From Bacteroidales bacterium (GTDB lineage Bacteria > Bacteroidota > Bacteroidia > Bacteroidales > VadinHA17), in NCBI GenBank assembly GCA_003157015.1, contig PMIJ01000208.1, positions 1,542-41,263 on the forward strand: a stretch of 39,722 nucleotides of DNA. Direction: 5' to 3'. Each line of letters starts with the position of its first letter. Position 1 is the stretch's first letter. A program made the translations under genes and the position numbers. A model generated the notes under the pieces. The model was not told where the DNA came from and did no database searches. It saw only the letters and a list, made by a program, of their open reading frames with translations. Shown in pieces: positions 1 to 14,138 of this stretch.

Positions 1-745
1 ATCTGAATCCTATTTTTTTCAGGTTGGAAATAATATGTTCTTTATCAGGATTACGAATAATTTTTTCGATATATCCGGGCAGACATTCAATCCTCGCAAG
101 ATCACCATGTAACCTGACTCTTGTACCTGGGTAACCCAATTCCAGCAGCATGTTTTCAGCTTTCTCAGCCAACCTGAGGGCCTGTTCACTTATTTCAGTA
201 TCGTAGGGGATTCGTGTTAGAAGGCAAGCCATTGCAGGCTTGTCCCATATATCAAGATCCGCTTCTCTGGACAATTCCCTTATATCTTTTTTTGTAAGGC
301 CGGCTTCAAGTAGAGGGCTCCTTATACCCAGTTCTTTCAGTGCATTCATGCCTGGTCTGAAATCATTGATATCATCAGCATTTGTTCCGTCTATAACAAA
401 CCGATAATTATTTTCCGATGCAAAACTCAATAAATCTGTGAAAAGAGTTTTCTTACACATATAACACCTGTCGATCGGGTTGCTTTTTATCATTTCAGGG
501 AAGCCAATATCAATTATTTTATGCCCGATGCCAAATGAACTTGTAAATTCGATAGCTTCTTCTATTTCCCGCGAGGGAATATATGGAGTTCTTATTGTTA
601 CGGCTATAATATTAGAGTTTTTTAAGGTATGAGCACGGTGTAAAAGGAAAGTGCTGTCAACCCCACCGGAAAATGCAACCACGAACGAATTCAGGTACTT
701 AAGTATTGAGTTTAATTTTAATGATTTCTGATTTTTTGAATCCAT
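1..745 (-). CDS. larE: LarE, ATP-dependent sulfur transferase of nickel-pincer cofactor synthesis (3' end outside window)
   Basis: LarE adenylates and then thiolates the pyridinium bis-carboxylate precursor of the nickel-pincer nucleotide used by lactate racemase-type enzymes. The frame opens at an ATG at 745 and stays open for 248 codons to the window edge, so only the last few dozen residues are missing compared with family members of about 270 residues. The PP-loop ATP motif SGGVDS lies at residues 26-31. Three cysteines are well placed: Cys94 and Cys97 in RCYMCKK and Cys174 in MACLLTRIP, the position of the reactive cysteine in the family. The CxxC plus Cys174 set resembles homologues that hold a [4Fe-4S] cluster rather than those that sacrifice one cysteine sulfur (inference). 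It lies 30 bases downstream of larC on the same strand, so the two are probably one operon. larA and larB are not in the window. Confidence 0.9.
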   Translation of the reverse strand, partial: MDSKNQKSLKLNSILKYLNSFVVAFSGGVDSTFLLHRAHTLKNSNIIAVTIRTPYIPSREIEEAIEFTSSFGIGHKIIDIGFPEMIKSNPIDRCYMCKKTLFTDLLSFASENNYRFVIDGTNADDINDFRPGMNALKELGIRSPLLEAGLTKKDIRELSREADLDIWDKPAMACLLTRIPYDTEISEQALRLAEKAENMLLELGYPGTRVRLHGDLARIECLPGYIEKIIRNPDKEHIISNLKKIGFR

Positions 746-775
746 TTCTATTTCTGATTTATATTTTACTTCCGG

Positions 776-1951
776 CTACTTATTTTTAAGCAGGGCGGCG
801 ATAATATTATTGTAAACCTCTTTTATGGGAATCTGATTTTCAGAAGCGATTTGCTTAATATCCTCATATTCAGGCTTATATGATACTTCTTTCCCTTCAT
901 AGTATGATCGTTTGACCTTTATGTCACCATAAACAGTCTGAATCGTTTCGAAGTTTCTTACGAGTGTGTCTTTTCTAAAAGGAAAAGTTCTGATTCCCAA
1001 TGAAGTTGATTCAGTAAAAATGATATTTTTTACTGTTTCGGCAGTTTCTTTTTCGCAAATTACATTAAGCAGGATGCCCGGACGTCCCTTTTTCATGATA
1101 ATATTTGAAAAGAAAACATCTGATGCGCCTGATTTAAAAAGCCTTTCTGATATGTAATCAAAAAATTCAGGATTCATATCGTCGATGTTGCATTCAATCT
1201 GAACGGCATCATGTCCTGATTCCTGATTCAAACCTGATTCACCAAGAAAAACTCTAAGGAGATTGGGTACATCCGGATGTTCTTTCTGACCTACGCCATA
1301 CGCTGTTTTTTCAATTTTAAGATTGAGATTGTTATTAAAGCTGGTTCCTAAGGTAGCAAGAATGGCAGCTCCGGTAGGAGTTGTAGCTTCAAAGTCGACG
1401 CCACCTGTTTTAACAGGAATTCCTTTAAGAATTTCAGCAGTTGCGGGAGCCGGCACAGGCAGTTTCCCGTGATCGCATAATACAAAACCGCCTCCAAGTT
1501 CAACGGTGGAAACATTTACTGCATCAACATTTAAGGCATTAAAGCATATTGCGGCACCAACAACATCAATAATTGAATCAACAGCTCCAACTTCATGAAA
1601 ATGTACATGATCAATAGGTATAGCATGCACAGCCGCTTCAGCCCGGGCAATATTCATGAATATTTTCAAACTCAGTGTCTTATTTTCATTATCAAGCGTT
1701 GATTCATTAATAATCTTTTCTATATCAGAAAGATGCCGATGGGCATGTTCTTGCCTGGTCCGCTTGACAGTTACTTTTGTTCCGGTTATGCCATGCCTCT
1801 GATCTTTACTGACTTCCAGTTCCCAACCCGGAAGATTCAGCTTAATTAATTCCTCAATGAGATAGTTTTTATCAACGCCAAGATCTATCATAGCACCGAG
1901 ATTCATATCTCCGCTGATACCTGAGAAACAATCATAACCTATAATTTTCAT
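776..1951 (-). CDS. larC: LarC, nickel insertion protein (nickel-pincer cofactor cyclometallase)
   Basis: LarC inserts nickel into the thiolated nucleotide using CTP, the last step of nickel-pincer cofactor synthesis. The 391-residue protein begins MKIIGYDCFSGISGDM, the family signature, and has a histidine-rich stretch (EHAHRH near residues 68-73) and the HVHFHEVGAVDS motif near residues 116-127. A GGVDFEATTPTGAA segment follows. It is a single uninterrupted frame: the programmed frameshift that joins LarC1 and LarC2 in Lactiplantibacillus is not needed here. larE follows after 30 bases. The upstream 181 bases are shared with a divergent DUF362 gene, and no convincing promoter core for larC was found there. 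Confidence 0.92.
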   Translation of the reverse strand: MKIIGYDCFSGISGDMNLGAMIDLGVDKNYLIEELIKLNLPGWELEVSKDQRHGITGTKVTVKRTRQEHAHRHLSDIEKIINESTLDNENKTLSLKIFMNIARAEAAVHAIPIDHVHFHEVGAVDSIIDVVGAAICFNALNVDAVNVSTVELGGGFVLCDHGKLPVPAPATAEILKGIPVKTGGVDFEATTPTGAAILATLGTSFNNNLNLKIEKTAYGVGQKEHPDVPNLLRVFLGESGLNQESGHDAVQIECNIDDMNPEFFDYISERLFKSGASDVFFSNIIMKKGRPGILLNVICEKETAETVKNIIFTESTSLGIRTFPFRKDTLVRNFETIQTVYGDIKVKRSYYEGKEVSYKPEYEDIKQIASENQIPIKEVYNNIIAALLKNK

Positions 1952-2080
1952 GCTATTAGAGTAGTATTAGATGCAACAATTAAAACAGGAGAATGTTAAA
2001 AAACCTTAGAATATATTTATTATTAGTTTGATCTGCTAATATACTATTTACAATCTTTACGGAATAAGAAAAAAAAATTG

Positions 2081-2088
2081 TATTTTTC
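2081..2088 (+). promoter_or_regulatory. Candidate promoter -7 element for the DUF362 operon
   Basis: TATTTTTC matches the Bacteroidota -7 consensus TAnnTTTG at all but the last position. A TTTA at 2056-2059 stands 21 bases upstream, where TTTG is expected. The start codon at 2133 would leave a leader of about 40 bases. Confidence 0.4.
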
Positions 2089-2132
2089 GGCACGTTTCCA
2101 GGTTCGTTTTAATTAACCAGATTATTAAGATT

Positions 2133-3053
2133 ATGAAAAGAAGGGATTTTTTTAAATCATCAATTGGTGGAAGTTTAGCCGCCGGTGCAGCTTTAAAAAT
2201 GGGAGGATTTGATAAGCTCTGGTCATCAGCCCCCCCGGCCGCAAAGTACGACATGGTGGCTGTAATGGGTGGTAATCCTGATGCAATGTTTGACCTCGGG
2301 ATACAGGAATTGGGAGGTATGGGCGCTTTTGTTCAGAAAGGACAAAAAGTTCTTATCAAACCAAATATTGGTTGGGATGTAATTCCTGACCTGGCCGCAA
2401 ATACAAATCCTCTGCTTGTAAAAAGGATAATTGAGCATTGTTTCAAAGCAGGAGCAAAAGAGGTCTATGTGTTTGATCATACATGTGATAACTGGGTTAA
2501 TTGCTATAGTAATTCGGGAATTGAGAAAGCTGCAAAATCTGCAGGCGCTAAAGTGGTTCCGGGCAATTCGGAAAGCTACTACCATGGGATTGAAATTCCG
2601 GGCGGAATTAAGCTTCAGAAGGCAAAAGTACATCAGCTTTTGCTCGAGACTGATGTTTTTATAAATGTACCGGTTCTTAAGGATCATAATTCCACTCTGA
2701 TGACCTGTTGTCTTAAAAATATGATGGGTGTCGTCTGGGACAGAGGTTACTGGCATTCGAATAATCTGAATCAATGTATTGCTGATTATGCTCTTTATGA
2801 AAAGAAACCTGCACTTAATATCATTGATTGCTATAATGTTATGGTGAAGCATGGACCACAGGGTGTCTCAAAAGAAGATATAGTTCCAATGAAGTCACAG
2901 ATACTTACAAACGATTGGGTAGCCGGAGATGCTGCTGCTGCAAAAATGCTGGGCGTTGCGATTGAAAAGATAGAATATATACCGATAGCACATAAAATGG
3001 GATTGGGGAATATGAATCTGGAAACCCTGAATATCAAAAAAATTAAAATGTAA
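2133..3053 (+). CDS. Tat-exported DUF362 protein
   Basis: DUF362 proteins have no settled biochemical role; many are fused or linked to ferredoxin domains. This 306-residue copy starts with a twin-arginine leader, KRRDFF at residues 2-7 followed by an Ala/Gly-rich hydrophobic stretch to about residue 24, which suggests export of a folded protein, perhaps with a cofactor. The rest is the DUF362 core, with KPNIGWD near residue 76 and the NVPVLKDHNSTLMTCCLKNMMGVVWDR region split around residues 180-205. It has a few scattered cysteines but no CxxCxxC ferredoxin motif of its own. The next gene starts 6 bases after the stop and encodes a polyferredoxin, so the clusters this family often carries in cis are probably supplied in trans. 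Function is inferred from context only. Confidence 0.85.
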   Translation: MKRRDFFKSSIGGSLAAGAALKMGGFDKLWSSAPPAAKYDMVAVMGGNPDAMFDLGIQELGGMGAFVQKGQKVLIKPNIGWDVIPDLAANTNPLLVKRIIEHCFKAGAKEVYVFDHTCDNWVNCYSNSGIEKAAKSAGAKVVPGNSESYYHGIEIPGGIKLQKAKVHQLLLETDVFINVPVLKDHNSTLMTCCLKNMMGVVWDRGYWHSNNLNQCIADYALYEKKPALNIIDCYNVMVKHGPQGVSKEDIVPMKSQILTNDWVAGDAAAAKMLGVAIEKIEYIPIAHKMGLGNMNLETLNIKKIKM

Positions 3054-3059
3054 TTCCTG

Positions 3060-4619
3060 ATGAGTTCATCTTTATTAAGAAGAATCCGGATCGTTTTTTC
3101 AACACTTGTTTTTATCTTCTTCGTACTGGTTTTTGTGGATTTTAAATCAATCATCCCGGCAAGCTATATTAATGCCTTAACCTTTTTACAGTTTATTCCT
3201 TCCGTATTAAAGTTTTACGATCTGAAAACTTTAGCTGCAGGAGGTTTTCTGATCATTCTTCTATTGACACTGGTTACCGGTCGCACTTATTGCTCATTTC
3301 TTTGCCCGCTGGGGATAGGACAGGATCTTAACAGCCGGATTGGCGGAAGAATTAAAAAAAAGTTTAGAAGATATGGGTTTAATCGACCATTTACAATATT
3401 ACGATACTCTGTACTTGCAATTACGCTTATTGTTTTATTGTTGTGGGGCACATACATGATTACTCTTCTGGACCCCTATAGTATATTTGCCAGGTTTATG
3501 ACCTATTTTGCAAAACCTGTTGTTATTTTAATAAATAATTTTCTGGCAGGCATATTCGGGAAGTTTGATATCTATACTCTCAGCAATATTCCGGTTAAAG
3601 GATTTCCTTTAATTGTATATTCCATTCCTGCAGCTTTCTTTATTCTGATCGGTGCTCTATCCTTAACCAAGGGACGTCTTTACTGCAATATGATTTGCCC
3701 TGTAGGGACCTTTCTTGGTCTGATTTCGAAAATTTCGCTGTTCAGAATAAAATTTAATGAAACTGCATGCACCAGGTGCGGTAGATGTGCTATGAGATGT
3801 AAGTCATCGTGCATTGACTTTCTTAAGCCACATGTCGATATATCAAGATGTGTAAGTTGCTTCAACTGCATACATACTTGCCAGGATAAAGCTATTTCAT
3901 ATGGGATTGTGAACTTTAAAAAGAAGGTTCATGAAACCGACGAAAGTAAACGGAAACTAATAGCCGGATCACTTTTACTGCTGTTCGGCTTGTCACATGT
4001 TGCAAATGGACAGAGCAAGACAGCACCAAAGCCCAAGAAGGATTCAACAGTAAAAGAGAACAGGACGTGTCCTGTTTGTCCGCCGGGGGGAGGAGGGATT
4101 GCAGCCTTTAATAAAGATTGTATAGCCTGTTCACTCTGTATTAATGTATGTCCGAACGGTGTATTGCAGCCAGCTTACAGACAGTACGGTTTAGCAGGTA
4201 TAATGCAGCCGGTTATGGATTATCATAAGAGCTTTTGCACTTACAATTGCACAAAATGCACTGAAATTTGCCCTACAAATGCGTTACATCCTCTGCTTCT
4301 TGATGCTAAAAAGCTTACCCAGATAGGGAAAGCAAAATTTATTAAAGACAACTGCATAGTTAAAACGGAGAAAACAGCCTGTGGAGCGTGCTCGGAAGCT
4401 TGTCCGACCAAAGCTTGTCATATGATTCCTTATGAAGGAAACCTGGTCATCCCGGAGGTTACCGAGGACATATGTATAGGATGTGGCCATTGTGAATTCG
4501 CATGTCCTGCCTCTCCTTATAAAGCAATTTTTGTTGATGGAAATCTTGTGCATATGGCTGCAAAAAAGCCTGAAAATGTGCAATCGGAAAAAAAGACACC
4601 TGTAGAATTTCCATTTTAA
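3060..4619 (+). CDS. Membrane polyferredoxin, NapH-like half joined to a NapG/MauM-like half
   Basis: The 519-residue protein is a probable quinone-linked electron-transfer component. Residues 12-27, 58-73, 115-135 and 185-203 look like membrane helices. The NapH/NosR-type motifs YCSFLCPLG (77-85) and YCNMICPVG (208-216) follow helices. Two ferredoxin-type clusters follow: CTRCGRCAMRC (237-247) and CVSCFNCIHTC (264-274). A further hydrophobic helix at 298-312 sits behind a KRK motif and ends in VANGQ, like an export signal. Behind it lies a second cysteine-rich domain of NapG/MauM type: CPVC (337-340), CIACSLCINVC (354-364), CTYNCTKCTEIC (393-404), CGACSEAC (441-448), CIGCGHCEFAC (472-482). 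The reading is that electrons cross from the membrane to an exported ferredoxin domain. The start ATG is 6 bases after the DUF362 stop. It carries no catalytic subunit for nitrate or methylamine, so those names describe homology only. Confidence 0.85.
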   Translation: MSSSLLRRIRIVFSTLVFIFFVLVFVDFKSIIPASYINALTFLQFIPSVLKFYDLKTLAAGGFLIILLLTLVTGRTYCSFLCPLGIGQDLNSRIGGRIKKKFRRYGFNRPFTILRYSVLAITLIVLLLWGTYMITLLDPYSIFARFMTYFAKPVVILINNFLAGIFGKFDIYTLSNIPVKGFPLIVYSIPAAFFILIGALSLTKGRLYCNMICPVGTFLGLISKISLFRIKFNETACTRCGRCAMRCKSSCIDFLKPHVDISRCVSCFNCIHTCQDKAISYGIVNFKKKVHETDESKRKLIAGSLLLLFGLSHVANGQSKTAPKPKKDSTVKENRTCPVCPPGGGGIAAFNKDCIACSLCINVCPNGVLQPAYRQYGLAGIMQPVMDYHKSFCTYNCTKCTEICPTNALHPLLLDAKKLTQIGKAKFIKDNCIVKTEKTACGACSEACPTKACHMIPYEGNLVIPEVTEDICIGCGHCEFACPASPYKAIFVDGNLVHMAAKKPENVQSEKKTPVEFPF

Positions 4620-4627
4620 TCTTCCCC

Positions 4628-4646
4628 TTCACACCTAAGGTGGGAA
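4628..4646 (+). terminator. Stem-loop after the polyferredoxin gene
   Basis: TTCACACC and GGTGGGAA pair around the loop TAA with one A-G mismatch, 9 bases after the stop at 4619. The following bases are T-rich only from about 4666, so termination strength is uncertain. Confidence 0.4.
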
Positions 4647-4723
4647 TTCTCAGTAATATTTGAAAATTTTCTTAATGACCGAAAACAGGGGGCCAATTCT
4701 TAAAACAATTAATTTTAATTCAT

Positions 4724-5140
4724 ATGAAGCCATCACATATTGAGCATATTGGTATAGCAGTCACCAACCTTAAAAAGGCAATAAGTTTTTATGAAAAGGT
4801 TTTGGGACTGACCTGTTATAATATCGAAGAGATTCCTGATCAGAAAGTGCGGACGGCATTTTTTCAGGTCGGACAAACAAAAATAGAATTGCTCGAATCA
4901 ACCGACCCGGAAGGACCAATTGGAAAGTTCATTCAAAAGAAAGGAGAAGGAATTCATCATATTGCTTTTAGTGTTGAAAAAATTGAAGAGCAATTGATGT
5001 ATGCCGCCAATATGGGAATCACTCTTATTGACTGTAAACCCCGAAAGGGGGCAGAAGGGCTGGATATTGCTTTTTTGCATCCGAAAGCAACTTCCGGAGT
5101 TCTGATAGAGCTTTGCGAAGATAAACATATAACTGGCTGA
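4724..5140 (+). CDS. mce: Methylmalonyl-CoA epimerase
   Basis: It interconverts the R and S forms of methylmalonyl-CoA in the succinate-propionate pathway. At 138 residues it has the normal size for this vicinal-oxygen-chelate enzyme. The N-terminal HIEHIGIAVTNL carries metal ligand His8; the second half carries GIHHIAFSV (His79) and GVLIELCE (Glu129), the expected metal ligands. In many Bacteroidota this gene is followed by the methylmalonyl-CoA decarboxylase large subunit; here it is followed after 58 bases by citrate lyase, which has its own promoter-like element. A related glyoxalase of another specificity is possible but less likely given the match over the full length. Confidence 0.87.
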   Translation: MKPSHIEHIGIAVTNLKKAISFYEKVLGLTCYNIEEIPDQKVRTAFFQVGQTKIELLESTDPEGPIGKFIQKKGEGIHHIAFSVEKIEEQLMYAANMGITLIDCKPRKGAEGLDIAFLHPKATSGVLIELCEDKHITG

Positions 5141-5141
5141 T

Positions 5142-5172
5142 GTTGGTTATGTTTAAAAAATCAGTAGGTTTG
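5142..5172 (+). promoter_or_regulatory. Promoter for the citrate lyase genes
   Basis: TAGGTTTG at 5165-5172 is a perfect TAnnTTTG -7 element. GTTG at 5142-5145 stands 19 bases upstream, three of four bases matching TTTG. It lies between mce and citDE and predicts a leader of about 20 bases, so the lyase genes can be expressed separately from mce. Confidence 0.6.
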
Positions 5173-5198
5173 TATAACACTACCAACTGTACAGCGAT

Positions 5199-6428
5199 AT
5201 GAATGAACTCGTCGCAATCGCAGGGAATTCCGGACCAAAAATCAGGTCCGATTGCGAAATTGTTTTAGAAATCAGATCTGATGGCGGGATTGTGATTGAT
5301 CTTAAATCCAAGGTTCAGGTATTATATGGCGAATCAATAAAACATCTTATTAAGGAGATACTTGTTTTTTTTGGAATTAAACATGCTTCTGTAACCATCA
5401 GTGACGCTGGCGCTCTTCCCTTTGTTATAGCGGCAAGAATGGAAGCGGCCGTTAAACAATTAATCAAAACTGATCTTGAATATCTTCCGGCGATTCTTGA
5501 GGAAAATGGTTATGAAACAACGCGCGACAGGTTTCGTTTTACGAGGTTATATTTACCTGGCAATACGCCGGGATTAATGATCAATGCGGGTCTTCATTCT
5601 GCCGATGGAATAATTCTTGATCTCGAAGACTCCGTTGCGGCTGAAAAAAAGAATGAAGCCAGAATTCTTGTCAGAAACGCCTTAAGGCAGATTAATTTCT
5701 ATGGTGCTGAAAGAATGGTAAGAATAAATCAGGGCGAGAGAGGGCTGGAGGATATTCGATATGTGGTACCTCATAATGTTAATCTTGTTCTTATTCCAAA
5801 ATGCGAAAGTGCAGAATATATTAAAGTGGTAGATAAAGAGATTTCAGCTGTTAAGAAAGAATTCAATCTCTTTCATAATGTGTATCTTATGCCTATCATT
5901 GAAAGTGCATTGGGGATTGAAAATTCTTTCGATATTGTACGCGGGTCTGAAAATGTTGTTGCAGTTGCGATAGGTTTGGAAGATTATACTGCCGATATAG
6001 GTGTTTCAAGGACTGCAGATGGAAATGAATCGTTTTATGCGAGAACGCGTCTGGTTGTTGCAGCAAAGGCTGCAGGTATTCAACCGATTGATTCAGTGTT
6101 TTCCGATGTTGCCGATATGGAGGCTCTGAAAAAAACTGTAATGATATCAAAATCACTGGGCTTTGAAGGTATGGGTTGTATTCACCCCAGACAGATAGCT
6201 GTAATAAAGAATGGATTTGCACCTGAAGAACATGAAATAGAAAAGTCGAAAGACATCGTACTCGCCTATGAGTCAGCAAGACGCATGGGGCTTGGAGTAG
6301 TTTCACTGGGGTCAAAAATGATAGATCCGCCTGTAGTTGCCCGTGCCCAGAAAATCATTAGTCTTGCTGTTAGTATGAATATTATATCACCTGAGTGGCA
6401 AAAAGAAATTCCTTCTGAAGAGATTTAG
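5199..6428 (+). CDS. citDE: Fused citrate lyase acyl carrier protein and beta subunit (CitD-CitE)
   Basis: Citrate lyase splits citrate to acetate and oxaloacetate using an acyl carrier protein (CitD), a CoA-transferase (CitF) and a lyase (CitE). Here residues 1-95 resemble CitD: AGNSGPKIRSDC aligns with the segment holding the prosthetic-group serine (Ser17 by my alignment), and DAGALPFVIAARMEAA matches the end of CitD. Residues about 113-409 are the CitE lyase barrel, with RLYLPGNTPG (116-125) and DLEDSVA (141-147), the usual substrate and magnesium region. In well-studied operons citD and citE are separate genes, so the fusion is notable. citF follows after 17 bases. The activation genes citC, citX and citG are not in the window. 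Citramalate lyase has the same architecture and is a real alternative. Confidence 0.85.
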   Translation: MNELVAIAGNSGPKIRSDCEIVLEIRSDGGIVIDLKSKVQVLYGESIKHLIKEILVFFGIKHASVTISDAGALPFVIAARMEAAVKQLIKTDLEYLPAILEENGYETTRDRFRFTRLYLPGNTPGLMINAGLHSADGIILDLEDSVAAEKKNEARILVRNALRQINFYGAERMVRINQGERGLEDIRYVVPHNVNLVLIPKCESAEYIKVVDKEISAVKKEFNLFHNVYLMPIIESALGIENSFDIVRGSENVVAVAIGLEDYTADIGVSRTADGNESFYARTRLVVAAKAAGIQPIDSVFSDVADMEALKKTVMISKSLGFEGMGCIHPRQIAVIKNGFAPEEHEIEKSKDIVLAYESARRMGLGVVSLGSKMIDPPVVARAQKIISLAVSMNIISPEWQKEIPSEEI

Positions 6429-6445
6429 AAACCTAAATAGATAAT

Positions 6446-8005
6446 ATGCCAACGAAAACTGTGATAAATGCTGCCGGCAGAGCCGTTCCTTTAGAAATAA
6501 ATGGTAATCCGGTTATCCCTTTTAAAGGAGTTGGTAAATACAAACCGGAAAGCAGGAAATATTCTCCGCCTATACCATCCTGTTCTGATTTTCCTGATGA
6601 TGGAAATAAAGTTGTCAGTTCACTTGAAGAAGCTCTAAGAAAATGTGGCCTGAAAGATGGAATGACTATTTCAACTCATCATCATCTGAGAGATGGCGAC
6701 CTGATAAGCAACAAAGTATTTGAACTGGCATCAGCAATGGGAATAAAAGATCTGGTATGGTTCCCCTCTGCCTCTTTCCCTTGCAATGATCCGATAATTA
6801 AATACCTTGATGATGGCACAATTAACAGGATAGAGGGAAGTATGAATGGCCCGTTGGGGAGATATGTATCTGATGGAAGAATGAAGGGTACTGCAGTTTT
6901 AAGATCGCATGGAGGGAGAGTTCAGGCGATTCAGGATGGGGAGGTCAGAATTGACATAGCTGTTCTTGCAGCACCGACATCGGATTCTTTTGGAAACGCA
7001 AAGGGAACAGGAGGCACATCTGCCTGTGGGGTGCTCGGTTATGCAAAAGCTGATTATTTGTATGCTGAAAAGGTAATTGTGGTTACGGATAATCTTATAG
7101 ATCTTCCATGTTCTCCAATGGAAATTGAAGGAAATTTTGTTGATTACGTAGTCGTTGTCGACAAGATCGGAATACCTGAGAAAATAGTATCAGGTACAAC
7201 TCAGATAACCAGGAGCCCCGACAGGCTTCTGATTGCTGAACTGACTGCAACTTTCCTGGAAAAATCAGGCATATTAAAAAATGGTGTCACAATGCAGGCT
7301 GGTGCGGGGGGAACATCTCTGGCCATTGCGGTTTTTGTGCATCAGATACTCAAGAGCAAGGGTTGGAAATCGAAATTTGGATTCGGAGGAAGTACAAAAT
7401 ACATGGTTAAGATGCTCGAGGAGGGACAGATGGGCGCAATTCTCGATGCGCAGGCATTTGATCTTGAAGCGGTGAAATCAATTGTAAATAATCCCAACCA
7501 TATTCCATATTCGGTATTCAACGCATATAATTATCACTCGAAAGGAAATCTCACCAGTCTGATGGACATAATGATACTTGGTGCAACTGAGATAGATCTG
7601 AATTTCAATGGCAATGTTGTTACACATTCAGATGGCTATCTACTTCATGGCATCGGTGGCTGGCAAAACTGCCTTCATGCCCGGAATGTAATTCTTCCAC
7701 TGCCTTTATTTCGCGACCGTATCCCTGTCATTGTGGATGAAGTCACAACTTTGTGTGGCCCCGGCGAGCTCATTGATGTGATAATAACAGAGAGGGGTAT
7801 TGCTATTAATCCCTTAAGGCCTGATCTTATTGAAAGCGTCAGGGGAAGCGGCCTTCCTTTAAAGACCATCAGGGAACTAAAAGACGAAGCTGAGAAGATA
7901 TGCGGTGTTCCGCAAAAGCCTCAGTTTGAAGACGAAATTGTTGCTGCAGTTAAGTGGGTAGACGGAACTGTAATTGATGTGGTGAGAAAAATAAAAGCAA
8001 GTTGA
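6446..8005 (+). CDS. citF: Citrate lyase alpha subunit (citrate CoA-transferase)
   Basis: CitF exchanges the acetyl group on the carrier protein for citrate, before cleavage by CitE. The 519-residue length is normal for the alpha subunit. Recognisable segments include [15 protein letters not shown] near residue 70, [17 protein letters not shown] near 190, [12 protein letters not shown] near 283, and [28 protein letters not shown] near 311-340 (given here in part), followed by [15 protein letters not shown] near 395. It stands 17 bases after citDE and 7 bases before a rubredoxin gene, so one transcript is likely. A citramalate-specific enzyme cannot be excluded. Confidence 0.88.
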
Positions 8006-8012
8006 TCGTAAA

Positions 8013-8174
8013 ATGGAAAAATTCAAATGCGTTGTATGCGGCTATATCTACGACCCGGATGAGGGAGATTCTTCCAGCGGGATTCAGCCCGGCACTTCAT
8101 TCAGCGAACTGCCTGCTGATTATATCTGTCCTGTTTGTGGTGCTGGCAAAGATGAATTTGAAAAATACGGGTAG
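8013..8174 (+). CDS. Rubredoxin
   Basis: A short frame of 53 codons, ATG at 8013 and TAG at 8172-8174. It has the two rubredoxin iron-binding knuckles CVVCGY (residues 6-11) and [11 protein letters not shown] (39-49), with the usual YDPDEGD and LPADY segments between them. The single Fe(Cys)4 protein is a small one-electron carrier, typical of anaerobes, often for oxygen or superoxide detoxification. It starts 7 bases after the citF stop, so it is probably the last gene of the citrate lyase transcript; no redox partner is adjacent. Confidence 0.95.
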
Positions 8175-8202
8175 AAAAAAAAGAGTTCTTTCCTGCTAAA
8201 AG

Positions 8203-9669
8203 CTATCCCTGATTAACCGGCATATTTATCACAACATCAATAAGAAGATCCCAGAACATCTGTGCTGTCTTGATTTCAATCATCTCTTCAGGTGTATGAG
8301 CTCCTCTTATTGTCGGTCCGAATGAAATCATGTCAATGCCTTTAATTTTTTCATATACCAGGCCGCACTCCAGACCGGCATGTATTGCCCTGACAGATGG
8401 TTCTTTTCCGAACAAATTGATATACGATTTACGGGTTATACTAAGAATTTCCGAATTCAGATTTGGTTTCCAACCAGGGTATCCGTCAGAATGAACAACT
8501 TCTGCTCCTGCAAGTTTCAGACAAGATTCAACCATTGCTCCTGCATTATTCTTAGCCGATTCTACTGAACTTCGCTGCGTTGTAATTATTCTAATTGTAT
8601 TATTCTCACTGAACTTCGCTGAAGCAAGATTAGTTGATGTTTCTACAAGATCATCCATTTCCAGCGACCATGCGATAACACCGTGAGGACAGCAGGTTAA
8701 TGCATTCAGAAACCTTATCTGGCTTTCTTCATCCATAACAAAAGGAGGAACAGTTGTTTCCTTTACCCATATTTTAATATCTTTTTCGAGGGGCCCAAAC
8801 TCATCGATTTGAGTCGCATAGAAATCATTAATCCAGTATTTTATCTTAACTAATAATGTTTTATCGAAAACTATTGTTGAAAATGCTTCTCTTGGGATTG
8901 CATTACGGAGGTTACCTCCGTTAAAATCGGCAATAGAAATCTTAAACTGATGTGAGACATTCCAAAGAAGCCTGGTCATAATTTTAACCGCATTGCCATA
9001 TCCTTTGTGAATTTCATCTCCTGAATGACCTCCATGAAGACCGGTAACTGATACTTCAAGAGCTGCTGAATCTTTTGTTGTCTGAATTGCTTTATAATTC
9101 ATTGTTCCCACGGTATCCATTCCGCCGGCACAACCTATGAAGAGGATCCCTTCATCTTCTGAATCAAGATTAAGAAGTGTCCTGCCGCTGAAAAAATCAG
9201 GTTTAAGATTGATAGCTCCGGTCATTCCCGATTCTTCATCAACAGTAAAAAGGCATTCGATTTTGCCAGCTTTCAGGCTTTGATCAGAAAGGATTGCCAG
9301 TTGAGATGCAATACCTATTCCGTCATCAGCACCCAGAGTAGTTCCTGAAGCAGTTATCCATCCATCTTTTATAGTCGGTATAATGGGATCAGTTGACCAG
9401 TTATGCGGATAGTCAGCATTCTTTTCCCCCACCATATCCATATGACTCTGAAGAACAACTGTTTTTCGGTTTTCCATACCCCTGGTCGGTGGTTTGATAA
9501 TCAAGATATTACCGACTTCGTCCTCTTTTGATTCAAGGTTGTTTTTTTTTGCGAACTCAAGAAGATACTTTCTGATTTTCCCCTCATTTTTCGAAAGACG
9601 CGGAATACCGCAAATCTCTTCAAAGTAAAACCAGATTGGCGCTGGATTCAAATTACTTAAAATGCTCAT
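8203..9669 (-). CDS. pepD: Cytosolic dipeptidase of the PepD/aminoacyl-histidine type (M20)
   Basis: A zinc dipeptidase that cleaves dipeptides with broad specificity in the cytoplasm. The 488 residues match the family length and there is no signal peptide. The M20 zinc-site motifs are visible: QSHMDMV with His76 and Asp78, GADDGIG with Asp115/Asp116, the catalytic DEESGMTG with Glu145/Glu146, and LDSEDEG near 192. The C-terminal AIHAGLECGL and SFGPTIRGAHTPEE carry the last ligands. It converges with the rubredoxin gene (28-base gap) and is divergent from the isocitrate dehydrogenase gene. A perfect -7 element sits 29 bases upstream of its ATG. Confidence 0.93.
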   Translation of the reverse strand: MSILSNLNPAPIWFYFEEICGIPRLSKNEGKIRKYLLEFAKKNNLESKEDEVGNILIIKPPTRGMENRKTVVLQSHMDMVGEKNADYPHNWSTDPIIPTIKDGWITASGTTLGADDGIGIASQLAILSDQSLKAGKIECLFTVDEESGMTGAINLKPDFFSGRTLLNLDSEDEGILFIGCAGGMDTVGTMNYKAIQTTKDSAALEVSVTGLHGGHSGDEIHKGYGNAVKIMTRLLWNVSHQFKISIADFNGGNLRNAIPREAFSTIVFDKTLLVKIKYWINDFYATQIDEFGPLEKDIKIWVKETTVPPFVMDEESQIRFLNALTCCPHGVIAWSLEMDDLVETSTNLASAKFSENNTIRIITTQRSSVESAKNNAGAMVESCLKLAGAEVVHSDGYPGWKPNLNSEILSITRKSYINLFGKEPSVRAIHAGLECGLVYEKIKGIDMISFGPTIRGAHTPEEMIEIKTAQMFWDLLIDVVINMPVNQG

Positions 9670-9686
9670 ACGTGGAACTATAGTGC

Positions 9687-9705
9687 TATATTTGGCGCAA
9701 AAATA
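9687..9705. promoter_or_regulatory. Two opposed -7 elements in the pepD/idh divergent gap
   Basis: On the plus strand TATATTTG (9687-9694) points to idh; on the minus strand TATTTTTG (9698-9705) points to pepD. Both match TAnnTTTG at every fixed position and are separated by three bases, forming a near-perfect 19-base inverted repeat. The predicted start of each transcript falls in the other -7 element. Leaders would be about 22 bases for pepD and about 125 for idh. A dimeric regulator site is an alternative reading of the symmetry. Confidence 0.6.
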
Positions 9706-9825
9706 CTATTTTTTTTTTCATTTTTCGGGTATAACCGTAAAATTATAGTCAGGCTTTATCTGCTGACAAAAATTGATTATTTTTACGAATACCGAGATAT
9801 TCTGAAATAAACTAATTGAAATCGT

Positions 9826-11022
9826 ATGGCTAAACGTGCAATTGTTACATTACCCGGCGATGGGATAGGGGGAGTGGTTCTTCAACAGGCAATAAGAGTG
9901 CTTGATGCGGCAGGATTTAATGCGGATTATATACATGGTGATATTGGATGGGAATTCTGGTGCAAAGAAGGAAATCCATTGCCTCAGAGGACAATTGACC
10001 TCATTAAGAAACATAAAATTGCCCTTTTCGGAGCTATAACCTCAAAGCCGGTTGATGAGGCTAAAGCAGAACTTTCGCTGGAACTTCAGGGTAAGGGTTT
10101 TAGTTACTCAAGTCCGATTGTAGGTTTAAGACAACTTTTCAACCTGGATATTTGTGTTCGTCCGTGCAAGTCATATAAAGGAAACCCGCTGAACTTTGTA
10201 CGGAGAGGAAAAGGAAATACAATCGACGAACCACTTGTTGATGTGGTAATTTTTCGGCAGAATACCGAATGTTTATATTCCGGGGTGGAGTGGTCCAGCC
10301 CTCCTCCGCAGGTTCATGAGGCTTTAATGACCCATCCTAAATTCGTTGAGAACTTTGGAAATGTTCCAGTTGAAGAGCTGTCAATATCCACCAGAATCTT
10401 TACGAGAAAAGCCACAACCAGGATATTGCTGGCTGCTTTTGAGCATGCAAAAAAATATGGATATAAATCAGTTACAGTATGTGAGAAGCCAAATGTTATC
10501 AGAGAAACATCAGGATTAATGTGGAAGCTTGCGAAAGAAATTCAGAAAAGCTCTTTCCCCGAAATAAAACTGCTGAATACCAATATTGATGCCCAAATGA
10601 TGTGGCTTACCAAGAATCCTGAGGAATATGGCGTGATCGTTGCAGGCAACATGTTTGGCGATATTGCCTCAGACGCTTTTGCCGGACTTATTGGTGGTTT
10701 AGGATTTGCCTGCAGCGCCCAGTTCTCATCCGACGGAATCGCAGTATTTGAACCGACTCATGGTTCAGCCCCGAAATATGCGGGGTATGAAATTTCAATT
10801 GTTAACCCAATAGCAATGATAGAGTCAGCATGCATGATGCTCGATTTTCTTGATGAGAAGAAAACTTCTTCTAAAATCCGTAAAGCTATTGCTGCAGTTA
10901 TAGAAGAAGGTAAAGTGAAAACCTATGATATGATGAAAATGGCCGGCAGACCTGACGTAGTTAAGAATGGCGCTGCTTCAACATCTCAAATGACTGATGC
11001 CATCATTGCTAAATTAACTTAA
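9826..11022 (+). CDS. Isocitrate/isopropylmalate dehydrogenase family protein, probably isocitrate dehydrogenase
   Basis: The enzyme class oxidises and decarboxylates a 2-hydroxy dicarboxylic acid with NAD(P). The 398-residue protein has the N-terminal LPGDGIG motif (9-15), the substrate loop FRQNTECLYSGVEW (about 142-155), the metal-binding stretch AGNMFGDIASDAFAGLIGG (near 277-295) and the cofactor motif EPTHGSAPKYAG (near 310-321). The ENTE.LYSG pattern favours isocitrate over isopropylmalate, but the substrate loop RQNTEC is not standard, so homoisocitrate or another substrate stays open. It is divergent from pepD and 10 bases before an HD-domain gene. If it is isocitrate dehydrogenase, it feeds glutamate synthesis in a cell that also cleaves citrate. 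Confidence 0.82.
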   Translation: MAKRAIVTLPGDGIGGVVLQQAIRVLDAAGFNADYIHGDIGWEFWCKEGNPLPQRTIDLIKKHKIALFGAITSKPVDEAKAELSLELQGKGFSYSSPIVGLRQLFNLDICVRPCKSYKGNPLNFVRRGKGNTIDEPLVDVVIFRQNTECLYSGVEWSSPPPQVHEALMTHPKFVENFGNVPVEELSISTRIFTRKATTRILLAAFEHAKKYGYKSVTVCEKPNVIRETSGLMWKLAKEIQKSSFPEIKLLNTNIDAQMMWLTKNPEEYGVIVAGNMFGDIASDAFAGLIGGLGFACSAQFSSDGIAVFEPTHGSAPKYAGYEISIVNPIAMIESACMMLDFLDEKKTSSKIRKAIAAVIEEGKVKTYDMMKMAGRPDVVKNGAASTSQMTDAIIAKLT

Positions 11023-11032
11023 AGACTTTCCA

Positions 11033-11584
11033 ATGAATGAACAGGTTAAAAAGTTGTGGCCGGAATTAGAGTGGATTAAAGACCGGTCTCTCAGGGAACA
11101 AACTGCTAAAACATGGGAAAGGGCTCTGGAACGGAGTGTACTGACGGTAGATGATCTTGAAAAAATCCCATTTACACTATTGTGCGGACCTGACCTTAAA
11201 GTTAGTTTCATGGCACATAAGCGGTGTGTTGTTCATATCGCACGGGCGAGTGGTGAAAAGATGAACGAATTTTTCGCCGATGACCTACCGGTAGATATGG
11301 ACGTCCTTATCTCAGGAGCCATTCTTGCCGATGTGGGGAAATTGCTTGAATATGAACTTAATAAAGAAAAGAAGGCAGTACAGGGTAAATATGGACAATA
11401 CCTGAGACATCCCTTTTCAGGTGTGGCACTTGCAGAAGAGTGCGGGCTTCCGCCTGAGGTTTGTCATATAATTGCAGCGCATGCACATGAAGGTGACCTG
11501 GTGAAAAGAACCACCGAGGCTTATATTGTTCATCATGCTGATTTCATGACTTTCCTGCCATTCAAAAGCCGGTTGATAGTCTAG
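11033..11584 (+). CDS. HD-domain protein with altered HD motif
   Basis: A 183-residue cytoplasmic protein of the HD phosphohydrolase superfamily. His68 (CVVHIAR), ADVGK (99-103), His126 (RHPFSG), HAH (150-152) and HHAD (167-170) mark the usual metal-ligand positions in order. The central HD pair reads AD (Ala99-Asp100) in place of the almost invariant His-Asp, while the following VGK is kept. Either a reduced metal site or a neighbouring histidine replaces it. It follows idh after 10 bases and is probably cotranscribed with it. The substrate is unknown. Confidence 0.72.
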   Translation: MNEQVKKLWPELEWIKDRSLREQTAKTWERALERSVLTVDDLEKIPFTLLCGPDLKVSFMAHKRCVVHIARASGEKMNEFFADDLPVDMDVLISGAILADVGKLLEYELNKEKKAVQGKYGQYLRHPFSGVALAEECGLPPEVCHIIAAHAHEGDLVKRTTEAYIVHHADFMTFLPFKSRLIV

Positions 11585-11672
11585 TTAAAATCTGCGAATA
11601 TAAGGGCAATCGGAGATATCATTTTCCCTTTCTCTCGCAGATCACGCTGATTTAAGCGTATAAAATTGCATG

Positions 11673-14138
11673 TTAATTGAACAGCCAGATGGCTGGAACA
11701 ATGGCTTTAGGTCGGCCAGTACCTTCAACCAGGAACTCCAGTCCCTCACCGCCCTCACACTGAAAATATTCAATTCTTAATTTATGGTAACCTTTTGTTA
11801 GCGGATAACTTCTGCCTTCTTCATTCATGCCATGAATCCCATCATTAAGGACCGGTTCGGATTCATCAATAATCAATTTACTCCCGTCATCAGAGTTTAT
11901 AAATAGCCCATAAACTCCGTTTTCGGGTATAAGGATATATCCCTCAAACACAACTCCGAAATATGAATCCCTGCCGGCTATGGTATGAAAAACTCCGGGT
12001 ACGGTTTTTGTCACTATTGGCTTAAGTTCAGAAAAATCAGGCAATTCACTATACTTTCCGAAATAAATGGAGGCTTTTAATCCAGGCTTCAATTGATCTG
12101 TTTTAACCGGAGCCATCGCACTCCTCTTTTCTATAAGATATGATGCAATGCGACTTTGAGCATCGTTCCATTTTGTGAATGTTTTAACTGTAGTTGTCTC
12201 TGTTATCTTAAAAGGCCCTGTATAAAGTGTCGATTTTTCATCCGGGTTATTGCCATTTAAAGTATAGAAAATTTTTCCTCCGTCTCTGATATTTTTTAAA
12301 TCAATCATAAAACTGTCGGTAAATATTCTGTCACGCGAAATAAGTGAAGCCGGAATCATGTTATGATTTGCCCTGAAAACGTTTTCAATTCCCATCTTAT
12401 TTACTTTCCTGTCATATGTAAGCAGGCCATTTGTTTCTGTTTCAACGTCAGTTGTCTGAGTGTATATTGTTGCACTTAAGCCATTCTCTGCAACAAATCT
12501 GTGAACCAGGTCAAAATATGATTCATATTTTGACAACAACTGAAGAGTATCTGCCATGTTTCTGTATCCCCAGTTCTTTTGTTCCCATGTATGACCCTGG
12601 AGAGGAAGTCCAAGCCCTCCAAATTCACCTAGCACTTTCGCTCTCTTTTCCTCGGAAGGTTGAACTACCGGATCGGGATAATGATGAATATCATTTATAT
12701 TGCCAGTACCTCTGTCTGTCCAGCCGGAAGAGCTGTTAACAAGCCTCGTGGGGTCATAATCAGCGATCAGGCCTGTAATTCTTCCAGTTTCAAACTGACC
12801 CCAGCCTTCGTTGAAAGGTATCCACATGATAATTGACGGATGATTATATTTTGTCTCTATCATCCTTTTAAGCTCGAACTCATACTGTAAAATTGCATCT
12901 TGCGATTTATTTATATCTGGCATATTCCCCCAGATTGACTGATCACCGCTTGGCATATCCTGCCAGACAAGAATTCCCAGTTTGTCGCACCAGTAATAAA
13001 AGATCCTGTTTTCCACTTTTACATGTTTCCTCAACATATTGAACCCCATTTTCTTTGTCATCTGAAGATCGTTAACCATCGCTTCTTCAGTTGGGGGAGT
13101 GTAGATGCCATCAGGCCAGAAACCCTGATCGAGAGGCCCATTCTGATATACGAATTCGTTGTTGAGAAGCATTCTGGTAAACCCGTCAGATGTTTTTCCA
13201 ATCGATATTTTTCTGATACCCGTATAGGATTTCACAAAATCAACTGTTCTGTTATTATTTTTTAATTCGATAGTAATATCATACAGGAAAGGCTTATCAG
13301 GCGACCAGAGAACAGGATCTTTAATTTTGACCGTAGTCTCACTATTCGTGTTCCCGTTTGCAGAGGCAATTGTTTTCCCATCTCTTTTTATCTTGAAAGA
13401 AAGAGAACCTGAGCCTCCGTTTTTAACCTCAGTTTTAAACGTAATTGTTCCGTTATCAGCATTAGGTACCGTTCGGAAGGAAGTGATATAGCTTTCGTTT
13501 ACAGGTTCGATCCATACGGTTTGCCAGATGCCAGTTGTTGATGTATACCAGATACTGCCTGGTGATGAGACCTGTTTCCCCCTGGGTTGGGTTCCCTTGT
13601 CCGTCGGATCCCATATGCAAACAACCAGCTCATGCTGTTTTTTGTTGCCGAGCGAACTTGTAATATCGAAAGTAAAGGGATCATATCCGCCACGGTGCGT
13701 TCCAACCTCATTCCCGTCGACCCAGACAATGGTTTCCCAGTCACATGCTTCAAAATTTAACAATATATGTTTCTTCTTCCAGATATTTGGTATCCTGAAT
13801 GTTCTCTTATACCACAGATTTTCATTTTCAGATACTTTTTTTCTGACTCCCGAAAGAGCCGATTCAACCGGATAAGGAACCAGGATTGAGCCATCCCAGT
13901 TTCCAGGTTTTATTCCTTTGACAGTGATTGCATAATCCCATAGACCATTGAGATTGATCCAGGAGTTTCTGGCCATATCGGGACGGGGATATTCCATCCA
14001 TGGTTTTGACGGATCAACCTCTTGTGACCATTTTGTCAGAAGAGGATTTTCTGCAATTTTCCAGCTTGTTTCTTTTTTCTGAGTACATGAAATACTAAAA
14101 AACAATATCAGGATTATGACTAAGCCTGTAGATCTCAT
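11673..14138 (-). CDS. GH2-family glycoside hydrolase lipoprotein with chitobiase-C-like and PA14 domains
   Basis: A secreted lipoprotein exo-glycosidase. The leader ends in the lipobox FFSISC, so Cys18 is lipidated. Residues about 55-220 form the GH2 jelly-roll, 225-310 the immunoglobulin-like domain, and 315-600 the TIM barrel. Within the barrel FNEGWGQFE holds the probable acid/base Glu444 and VLGEFGG the probable nucleophile Glu505. Residues about 610-665 (GKIFYTLNGNNPDEKS) resemble the chitobiase C-terminal domain, and the last 130 residues (NSDDGSKLIID) are a PA14 carbohydrate-binding domain. Specificity (galactoside, glucuronide, mannoside) cannot be read safely. No SusC/SusD pair or other glycan gene is near, so it is not in an evident polysaccharide utilization locus. 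Confidence 0.9.
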   Translation of the reverse strand: MRSTGLVIILILFFSISCTQKKETSWKIAENPLLTKWSQEVDPSKPWMEYPRPDMARNSWINLNGLWDYAITVKGIKPGNWDGSILVPYPVESALSGVRKKVSENENLWYKRTFRIPNIWKKKHILLNFEACDWETIVWVDGNEVGTHRGGYDPFTFDITSSLGNKKQHELVVCIWDPTDKGTQPRGKQVSSPGSIWYTSTTGIWQTVWIEPVNESYITSFRTVPNADNGTITFKTEVKNGGSGSLSFKIKRDGKTIASANGNTNSETTVKIKDPVLWSPDKPFLYDITIELKNNNRTVDFVKSYTGIRKISIGKTSDGFTRMLLNNEFVYQNGPLDQGFWPDGIYTPPTEEAMVNDLQMTKKMGFNMLRKHVKVENRIFYYWCDKLGILVWQDMPSGDQSIWGNMPDINKSQDAILQYEFELKRMIETKYNHPSIIMWIPFNEGWGQFETGRITGLIADYDPTRLVNSSSGWTDRGTGNINDIHHYPDPVVQPSEEKRAKVLGEFGGLGLPLQGHTWEQKNWGYRNMADTLQLLSKYESYFDLVHRFVAENGLSATIYTQTTDVETETNGLLTYDRKVNKMGIENVFRANHNMIPASLISRDRIFTDSFMIDLKNIRDGGKIFYTLNGNNPDEKSTLYTGPFKITETTTVKTFTKWNDAQSRIASYLIEKRSAMAPVKTDQLKPGLKASIYFGKYSELPDFSELKPIVTKTVPGVFHTIAGRDSYFGVVFEGYILIPENGVYGLFINSDDGSKLIIDESEPVLNDGIHGMNEEGRSYPLTKGYHKLRIEYFQCEGGEGLEFLVEGTGRPKAIVPAIWLFN

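Follow-up and report, generated by a model that had tools for sequence, protein, structure and literature searches.

Which function is served by a putatively exported DUF362 protein whose gene lies directly in front of that of a polyferredoxin? The question is raised by the window analysed here, the whole stretch of 39,722 nucleotides from a Bacteroidales contig, in which a sequence-only reading had taken the two genes for one redox module that looked like an electron path from quinones to the periplasm. The features on which our argument relies are the following, NPN standing for the nickel-pincer nucleotide:

2–745, minus strand: larE, sacrificial sulfur transferase, cut by the window edge (TIGR00268, 280.1 bits)
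776–1951, minus strand: larC, NPN nickel insertase, oriented divergently to the DUF362 gene (TIGR00299, 210.5 bits; LarC2, 144.8 bits)
2133–3053, plus strand: DUF362 gene, 306 aa, with a Tat-type leader and a predicted LarA N-domain fold
2133–2231, plus strand: Tat-type leader, MKRRDFFKSSIGGSLAAGAALK...; RR in 84/84 rows; residues 1–33 are of low confidence in the model
2679–2756, plus strand: active-site-like motif K183-x-H185-x9-K195-N196...H208; H185/K195/H208 align with LarA H174/K184/H200
3060–4619, plus strand: polyferredoxin gene, 519 aa, a NapH-like and NapG-like fusion; 28 Cys in 88/88 rows
3060–3926, plus strand: NapH-like half (aa 1–289); four hydrophobic stretches, two CxxxCP, two four-Cys groups
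3939–4013, plus strand: second signal-like helix (aa 294–318), ..ESKRKLIAGSLLLLFGL..; start of a separate NapG-like gene in locus L200
3939–4616, plus strand: NapG/MauM-like half (aa 294–519); four conserved four-Cys groups

The two-gene arrangement proved to be real, as both open reading frames lie on the plus strand with a gap of 6 bases between them, and the pairing is near-constant in Bacteroidota and Ignavibacteria. The polyferredoxin gene is located directly 3′ of the DUF362 gene in 76 of 80 related named loci, beside it in 21 of the 22 order genomes (in the 22nd, G011, the sequence stops at the gene) and at all nine phylum loci inspected, so DUF362 genes of this clade mostly occur with the polyferredoxin. 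The exception is Competibacterales, where it was found within 1.5 kb downstream in only two of six loci inspected; since it is absent from this interval in the other four, the wiring by a polyferredoxin is not universal. Nitrate, methylamine or nitrous-oxide enzymes, which had been said to be missing from the vicinity, are indeed not among the annotated neighbours (window 1–11.6 kb; the remainder was viewed as open reading frames only). The neighbourhood as first described had nevertheless omitted larE and larC directly upstream of the pair.

The DUF362 protein matches PF04015 with 156.9 bits against a cut-off of 24, and this is the only Pfam family matched at E ≤ 0.001, which agrees with the earlier view that the protein has no ferredoxin motif of its own and likewise leaves it without a match to Lar_N (PF09861). 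It hence belongs to the same family as other DUF362 proteins but differs from them in combining a Tat-type leader with the lack of a ferredoxin domain; some members (e.g. those of loci L035 and L063) have a ferredoxin motif. The twin-arginine leader (MKRRDFFK) had also been noted before. Its RR recurs in every row of two alignments, A1 and A2, which together comprise 84 rows with a few proteins fetched twice, and 81 of these rows fit the full RRx[F/L] pattern. All 84 rows carry the active-site-like motif, of which K183, H185, K195 and N196 are invariant and H208 is conserved to at least 90% across 24 DUF362 proteins. Membership in Npun_F2552 (NF052623) was considered and rejected (56.6 bits; cut-off 500); a literature search for this name found no paper.

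The protein is predicted to adopt the N-domain fold of lactate racemase LarA. With the AF2 model (pLDDT 89.5) as query, all 19 Foldseek matches at E ≤ 1e-3 are of LarA/Mar type, including 4nar, which does not bear the name LarA but matches the LarA profile. VIA placed the model on the LarA N-domain with a Z of 18.5 over 207 residues at 2.7 Å, the next unrelated match having a Z of 5.7, and returned Z 17.4 for 5huq and 6c1w, the titles of which both mention a tethered pincer complex. The match spans residues 35–270 of L. plantarum LarA only, and the C-terminal domain of LarA is missing from the 306-residue DUF362 protein. Sequence searches of the PDB returned no relative and two weak, chance-like matches for the protein itself, and no LarA and one chance-like match, haemoglobin (E 0.94), for a diverse DUF362 profile. 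A clade-only profile aligned weakly with LarA in hhalign (probability 1.8), and repetition with the diverse profile gave E 3.1e-4 and a probability of 39.5. In the profile alignment, LarA His174, Lys184 and His200 fall onto H185, K195 and H208, respectively, which we regard as putative counterparts; in LarA they are the catalytic, the NPN-tethering and the nickel-coordinating residue, according to the accessible part of PMC12611868. H116, a guessed counterpart of the catalytic H108 of LarA, is H or N in DUF362 proteins.

The accessible part of PMC11770544 places DUF362 and the LarA superfamily in the same Pfam clan, CL0471, and employs ten DUF362 sequences as outgroup to NPN enzymes. With members of this superfamily (Lar_N; 5huq, 6c1w, 9eia/9eid), the protein of the window shares the predicted N-domain fold, the three residue counterparts and the adjoining lar biosynthesis genes. 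Unlike LarA, it consists of a single domain, possesses a Tat-type leader and usually an Fe-S partner, and varies at the H108 position; moreover, LarA itself performs no net redox reaction. The earlier description of the DUF362 protein as a terminal partner without settled function thus still applies to the function of the family, but the predicted fold and the conserved putative active-site counterparts no longer leave the protein blank.

A search for a third gene that correlates with the pair, suggested together with the sequence-only reading, returned larC/larE/larB or, at the same position in other lineages, a membrane protein that resembles ECF-S. LarC is encoded in 34 of the 80 DUF362 loci, divergently in 31 and colinearly in three, the latter all from Competibacteraceae, and larB follows larE (L060:727–1476). 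In a further relative, L200, the order DUF362-napH-napG-larC-larE-larB is contiguous, and in L198 and L199 another DUF362 subfamily heads larC-larE-larB. Within a set of 50 genomes, 21 of the 33 that bear LarC have it within the DUF362 locus, and the larC-neighbour label needs 11 changes on the DUF362 tree. Known RNA families, e.g. a metal or cofactor riboswitch, were found neither in window positions 1–12000 at E ≤ 0.1 nor above the gathering score in nine loci.

The polyferredoxin matches several Fer4 families and scores below the cut-offs of TIGR02163 for NapH/MauN (81.3 bits, cut-off 213.05) and of TIGR00397 for MauM/NapG (42.2 bits, cut-off 178.85). Its proposed nature as a NapH-NapG/MauM fusion with a second signal-like helix is borne out by strongly hydrophobic stretches at 9–27, 55–73, 111–136 and 184–202 and a weaker one at 300–318, by the KR (47/89 rows) or RR (42/89 rows) in front of the second helix, and by L200, in which NapH and NapG are split and the separate NapG-like gene begins exactly at this helix with MDKSRREAIKKGFLLF. 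Five cysteine groups had been counted in the second half; there are four conserved four-Cys groups, each cysteine being present in 88/88 rows, and CPVC at 337/340 is not conserved (8/88 and 20/88 rows). The arrangement of hydrophobic stretches, CxxxCP motifs, signal-like helix and cysteine groups resembles NapH/NapG and MauN/MauM, the NapH/NapG topology being partly general knowledge, whereas the fusion into one chain, the low scores and the partnership with DUF362 instead of a nitrate or methylamine enzyme set it apart. Judged by this resemblance, the quinone-to-periplasm electron path suggested earlier is likely.

We propose, with confidence that is evenly poised, that the DUF362 protein is an exported redox enzyme of LarA type, wired to the quinone pool and carrying NPN in larC-bearing lineages. 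As a single-domain relative of LarA, it would fold and load its cofactor in the cytoplasm prior to export via the Tat pathway. In lineages with linked larBEC, this cofactor would be NPN, tethered at K195, with H208 on the nickel and H185 as acid/base. The polyferredoxin, where present, would link the protein to the quinone pool, and because of this tie the hydride chemistry of LarA racemisation could turn into a net oxidation or reduction, linked to the respiratory chain, of a periplasmic substrate, which is probably a 2-hydroxy/2-oxo acid. Of this picture, the pairing, the leader, the predicted fold, the residue correspondence from profile alignment and the recurrent larC/E/B linkage are results of computation, whereas NPN loading, Tat export, electron transfer, its direction and the substrate are inferred.

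The main rival to an NPN-using DUF362 protein explains the adjacency of larBEC by inherited gene order: the genes would serve, e.g., a hexonate epimerase, and DUF362 would be a periplasmic redox protein with a LarA fold and a link to quinones, but without any use of NPN. We hold this to be possible, though distinctly short of probable. A common frame, WbqC-[larBEC]-DUF362-polyferredoxin-LepB, is shared by some relatives, and the genome of the window encodes another putative NPN enzyme, a LarA of hexonate-epimerase type (NF052594, 640 bits). DUF362 genomes without LarC (14/22 in the order sample, 17/50 and 18/28, several rated 99–100% complete) also keep the same active-site residues. LarC-positive and LarC-negative DUF362 proteins cannot be told apart at any conserved candidate position for cofactor or catalysis, and none of the invariant positions is among the 18 most different columns (34 and 16 rows; 13 of 63 rows were left out as they had no LarC status). 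Such genomes weigh partly less, since 15 of 25 genomes with a LarA-family match have no LarC either. Against inherited order speak the unlike arrangements (divergent, colinear after the polyferredoxin, contiguous in L200, with another DUF362 in L198 and L199), spread over Bacteroidota, Balneolota and Pseudomonadota, and the absence of a LarA match from 10 of the 33 LarC-bearing genomes, four of them Competibacteraceae.

In favour of our proposal, genome-level comparisons by Fisher tests, which ignore relatedness, found LarC in 10/28 genomes with a window-type DUF362 versus 8/219 others and, in the order to which a Competibacteraceae genome belongs, in 15/16 genomes with DUF362 versus 5/24 without. 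Against it, LarA is a better predictor of LarC in the order sample (10/14 with LarA versus 1/66 without) than the window-type DUF362 is (8/22 versus 3/58).

For LarC-less lineages, a further reading, which we consider very unlikely, is that the same DUF362 protein receives a cofactor or precursor taken up from outside; the divergent position is occupied there by a gene for a probable ECF S-component, i.e. a vitamin importer. At 12 of the 80 loci, all of them without LarC, the neighbour of the DUF362 gene encodes a membrane protein of 168–206 aa, the model of which (pLDDT 78.7, from 12 sequences) matched RibU (Z 11.4 and 11.1), PanT (9.8) and BioY (8.7) best in VIA; however, a Z below 13 may reflect a common arrangement of helical proteins, the Foldseek E is only 0.19 and one genome, G038, has both this gene and LarC. 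Least likely of all is that the module maintains NPN, with DUF362 carrying, storing or reducing NPN or nickel for another enzyme by means of polyferredoxin electrons: the lar linkage and the missing LarA C-terminal domain would fit, but the Tat-type leader would place the protein across the membrane from the cytoplasmic LarB, LarC and LarE, and LarC-bearing genomes without a LarA match offer no obvious client.

It also counts against our proposal that, beyond the window, LarC is present without any PF04015 or Lar_N match in C. glutamicum and M. jannaschii and, in G248 and G257, without a match to LarA or to either of two DUF362 profiles. Among the texts read, only PMC11770544, in its accessible part, places DUF362 beside NPN enzymes; the accessible part of PMC10959288 contained no link between the nickel pincer and the periplasm, and a search from 2018 on joining LarA, lactate racemase and Nostoc retrieved no paper. 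PMC10892978 deals with DUF3623, a different family designation from DUF362. Because of its predicted LarA-like shape and frequent adjacency to NPN-building genes, the putatively exported DUF362 protein is a testable candidate for a missing NPN user. Co-expression systems of the type that such a test would need, with LarB/LarC/LarE in E. coli, have been described (PMC11796402). More generally, DUF362 proteins make the question of non-LarA NPN proteins directly testable, since they combine a predicted LarA-like fold without a LarA profile match with several larC/E/B arrangements; if true, DUF362 would be a named candidate for such proteins and, if the respiratory link is right, an NPN enzyme with net redox chemistry outside the cytoplasm. 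Tentatively, and with somewhat less than an even chance of being right in all its parts, we suggest that several DUF362 subfamilies are NPN enzymes, that the pair of the window is a respiratory NPN oxidoreductase, putting the hydride chemistry of the nickel pincer to use in a net redox reaction across the membrane, and that, where organisms have larBCE without larA, DUF362 proteins belong to those that use NPN. In favour of NPN use, a second DUF362 subfamily (A5), strong in 11 of 247 genomes, coincides with LarC in 11/11 of these versus 7/236 others, in a Fisher comparison that is likewise blind to relatedness.

The DUF362 gene and the polyferredoxin gene of the window follow one another on the same strand:

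2133-3053, + strand: DUF362 gene, open reading frame
3060-4619, + strand: polyferredoxin gene (519 aa), open reading frame beginning 6 bases after the DUF362 gene

In a Pfam profile search PF04015 was the sole family matched by the window DUF362 protein, and the RR of its leader is present in 84/84 rows of the clade alignments A1 and A2, a few of which repeat a protein already included. The polyferredoxin joins two known types, NapH-like and NapG-like, in one chain. Its NapH-like first half carries four hydrophobic stretches, two CxxxCP pairs and two four-cysteine groups, and a weaker hydrophobic stretch (300-318) lies between this half and the NapG/MauM-like second half. For the latter the sequence-only reading had counted five cysteine groups; we count four four-cysteine groups, as the fifth (CPVC) is not conserved. 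Altogether, 28 cysteines are kept in every one of the 88 rows that are 481 aa or longer. At locus L200 (genome G195, same phylum) the counterpart is encoded by two genes, a NapH-like protein of 299 aa matching polyferredoxin residues 6-289 (38%) and a NapG-like protein of 223 aa, beginning MDKSRREAIKKGFLLF, that matches residues 294-519 (41%). Because the NapG-like gene of L200 begins at the second signal-like helix proposed earlier, and because KR (47/89 rows) or RR (42/89, L200 counted in) precedes it, this helix is supported. At L120 (Prolixibacteraceae JC049) the polyferredoxin is present as two ORFs of 294 and 219 aa, possibly a second natural split or else a frameshift.

An orthologue of the DUF362 protein (E<1e-89) occurs in 22/80 genomes of the window's own order, with the polyferredoxin adjoining in 21; the contig of the 22nd stops at the gene. 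We further analyzed the best 80 of at least 583 named-genome loci, mostly from Bacteroidota but also from Ignavibacteria, Desulfobacterales and Competibacteraceae, with single records from Goldbacteria, Balneolales and Chlorobiota. The polyferredoxin lies directly downstream in 76 of these; two exceptions are contig ends (L131, L143) and two, both Competibacteraceae (L112, L138), have no polyferredoxin in the sequence examined. It is present in 9/9 further loci of the phylum sample and, within about 1.5 kb, in 2/6 loci of the Competibacterales sample (L205, L207), while none was found within about 1.5 kb directly downstream of the orthologue at L206, L208, L209 and L210. In Bacteroidota and Ignavibacteria the pair is therefore almost constant; in Competibacterales it is optional.

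To the other side of the pair lie genes overlooked in the sequence-only reading:

776-1951, divergent, upstream of the DUF362 gene: larC, over the equivalog cut-off
2-745, divergent, upstream of the DUF362 gene: larE, over the equivalog cut-off
L060:727-1476, just beyond the window edge, after larE: larB, whose relative in L046 matches AIRC

The products of larB, larC and larE make the nickel-pincer nucleotide (NPN), according to an excerpt of PMC11770544. LarC is encoded in 34 of the best 80 of at least 583 loci, divergently upstream in 31 and colinear after the polyferredoxin in three, all Competibacteraceae (L101, L125, L144), with larB further along in L101. L200 has the order DUF362, napH, napG, larC, larE, larB, neighbouring genes being separated or overlapping by 15 bases at most. 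A different DUF362 protein (487-499 aa) is encoded directly before larC, larE and larB at L198 (5572-9872) and L199 (3921-8230), where LarE and LarB are assigned solely from 35-39% BLAST identity and the LarE of L198 is a 141-aa fragment. By eye, the neighbours of these two sets look like polysaccharide genes. In a 50-genome set larC lies inside the locus in 21/33 LarC-bearing genomes, against about 0.4% per genome if placement in 3.5 Mb were random. The larC-neighbour label requires 11 changes on a quick DUF362 tree with many weak branches (64 rows, 62 with a state), and is also clustered.

An AF2 model of the window DUF362 protein (63 sequences, pLDDT 89.5, pTM 0.85, residues 1-33 unreliable) gave 19 Foldseek matches at E<=1e-3, all LarA-type chains; the third-ranked, 4nar, has no LarA name but is matched by the LarA profile. 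With VIA the model aligned to Isosphaera LarA with Z 18.5 (2.7 A, 207 residues) and to 5huq and 6c1w with 17.4, the first unrelated chain scoring 5.7. Since it covers only LarA residues from about 35 to 270, the model predicts a LarA N-domain without the C-domain. We aligned 24 DUF362 proteins (16-58% identical to the window protein) to nine LarA-family proteins by hhalign (E 3.1e-4, probability 39.5, 76 columns), which pairs H185 with H174, K195 with K184 and H208 with H200 of LarA by sequence profiles alone, with no atomic overlay; a clade-only profile left the pairing unchanged at a probability of 1.8. LarA residues are numbered by the first row of the LarA-family alignment A4, which we take to agree with L. 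plantarum LarA numbering. N78, K183, H185, T191, K195, N196 and D232 are invariant in the 24 proteins, and conservation of H208 is 90% or more. In LarA, H174 is the second catalytic histidine, K184 the NPN-carrying lysine and H200 a nickel-ligand histidine (PMC12611868, in part).

LarC is also more frequent in genomes with the DUF362 protein than in others, in counts that all ignore relatedness. It is found in 8/22 order-sample genomes with the window-type protein versus 3/58 others (Fisher 0.001), in 10/28 of the 247-genome phylum sample (E<1e-70) versus 8/219 others (1.7e-6), and in the order of the Competibacteraceae genome G102 in 15/16 versus 5/24 (5e-6), with G389 (contig-edge fragment) taken as positive and G408 (weak 128-aa match) as negative. 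There, the DUF362 and LarC genes of G102, G116, G128, G376 (LarC split over two frames), G381 and G389 are colinear within about 3 kb. Three of the four genomes behind the Competibacterales loci lacking an adjoining polyferredoxin (G390, G399, G407) nonetheless possess LarC, so in G102's order LarC tracks DUF362 more than the polyferredoxin. A tighter LarC partner than the window-type clade itself is a second subfamily, A5 (about 370 aa, no visible leader, motif K[CT]HI.TTTTGAMKNAFGGLL...RHYTH.WIH; L191:4715-5833 and relatives, L187-L197), strong in 11/247 phylum genomes, with LarC in 11/11 versus 7/236 others (relatedness again ignored). Six of the eight LarC-positive, LarA-negative genomes of this sample carry a window-type or A5-type DUF362 protein; G248 and G257 match neither profile. 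No Lar_N match was obtained in 10/33 LarC-bearing genomes of the 50-genome set, most of them drafts and G114 with only a partial LarC.

LarC is absent from 14/22 (order), 17/50 (50-genome set) and 18/28 (phylum) genomes with the window-type protein, and no conserved candidate position separates DUF362 proteins of LarC-positive and LarC-negative genomes. This shows that in LarC-less genomes the protein either works without NPN or has another cofactor or supply. The absence is not decisive alone, because 15/25 phylum-sample genomes with a LarA-family match also lack LarC. LarA is a better predictor of LarC than DUF362 is in the order sample (10/14 over cut-off versus 1/66, ignoring relatedness), and the window's own genome encodes a LarA-family protein (L061:5672-6949, - strand; NF052594, putative nickel-dependent hexonate epimerase) in a cluster that we take, naming its genes by eye, to be hexuronate-type. 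Among 14 control genomes DUF362 occurs in five, LarC in six and Lar_N in two: LarC and DUF362 occur together without Lar_N in Synechococcus elongatus and Haloferax volcanii, Bacteroides ihuae has DUF362 but not LarC, and the LarC-bearing C. glutamicum and M. jannaschii show no match to DUF362 or to Lar_N.

We give even chances to a DUF362 protein that is loaded with NPN and wired via the polyferredoxin. Tat substrates often take up their cofactor in the cytoplasm before export; the apo-DUF362 protein would take up its cofactor there, be exported and then dock onto the NapG-like half. The NPN pyridinium of LarA takes a hydride from a 2-hydroxy acid and gives it back (part of PMC12611868). With iron-sulfur clusters beside NPN, the hydride might instead travel on to menaquinone as electrons through the NapG-like and NapH-like halves, or the flow might run the opposite way. 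Where Competibacterales have no adjoining polyferredoxin, the case for this wiring is weaker but the larC link is unaffected, and the even chances stand. In an open-access literature search, mostly of listings, DUF362 proteins were nowhere said to use NPN. According to passages of PMC11796402, larB, larE and larC are present and larA absent in about 15% of genomes, and cyanobacteria are likely to employ NPN in some other protein, expected to differ in fold from LarA; H. volcanii is noted for larBCE and perhaps a nickel-pincer enzyme in a portion of PMC8305020.

In 12 of the best 80 of at least 583 loci, none with LarC in the locus, the divergent position is held by a membrane protein of 168-206 aa:

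L094:4900-5451, - strand: ECF-S-like membrane protein (also in L096, L098 and nine other loci)

For three relatives from other loci, no Pfam family was matched. A model (12 sequences, pLDDT 78.7) resembles ECF S-components by VIA (11.4 and 11.1 to RibU, 9.8 to PanT, 8.7 to BioY, with MreD interspersed at 9.0; the next unrelated fold scores 6.6); Foldseek alone was weak (E 0.19). A vitamin importer where other lineages place cofactor-biosynthesis genes is suggestive, no more, of cofactor supply. In G038 the gene adjoins the pair, and LarC is encoded at another place in the genome. Downstream of the pair, window positions 4724-8005 encode a methylmalonyl-CoA epimerase followed by CitE- and CitF-type citrate lyase subunits, the N-terminus of the CitE-type ORF also matching the CitD acyl carrier protein just under the cut-off.
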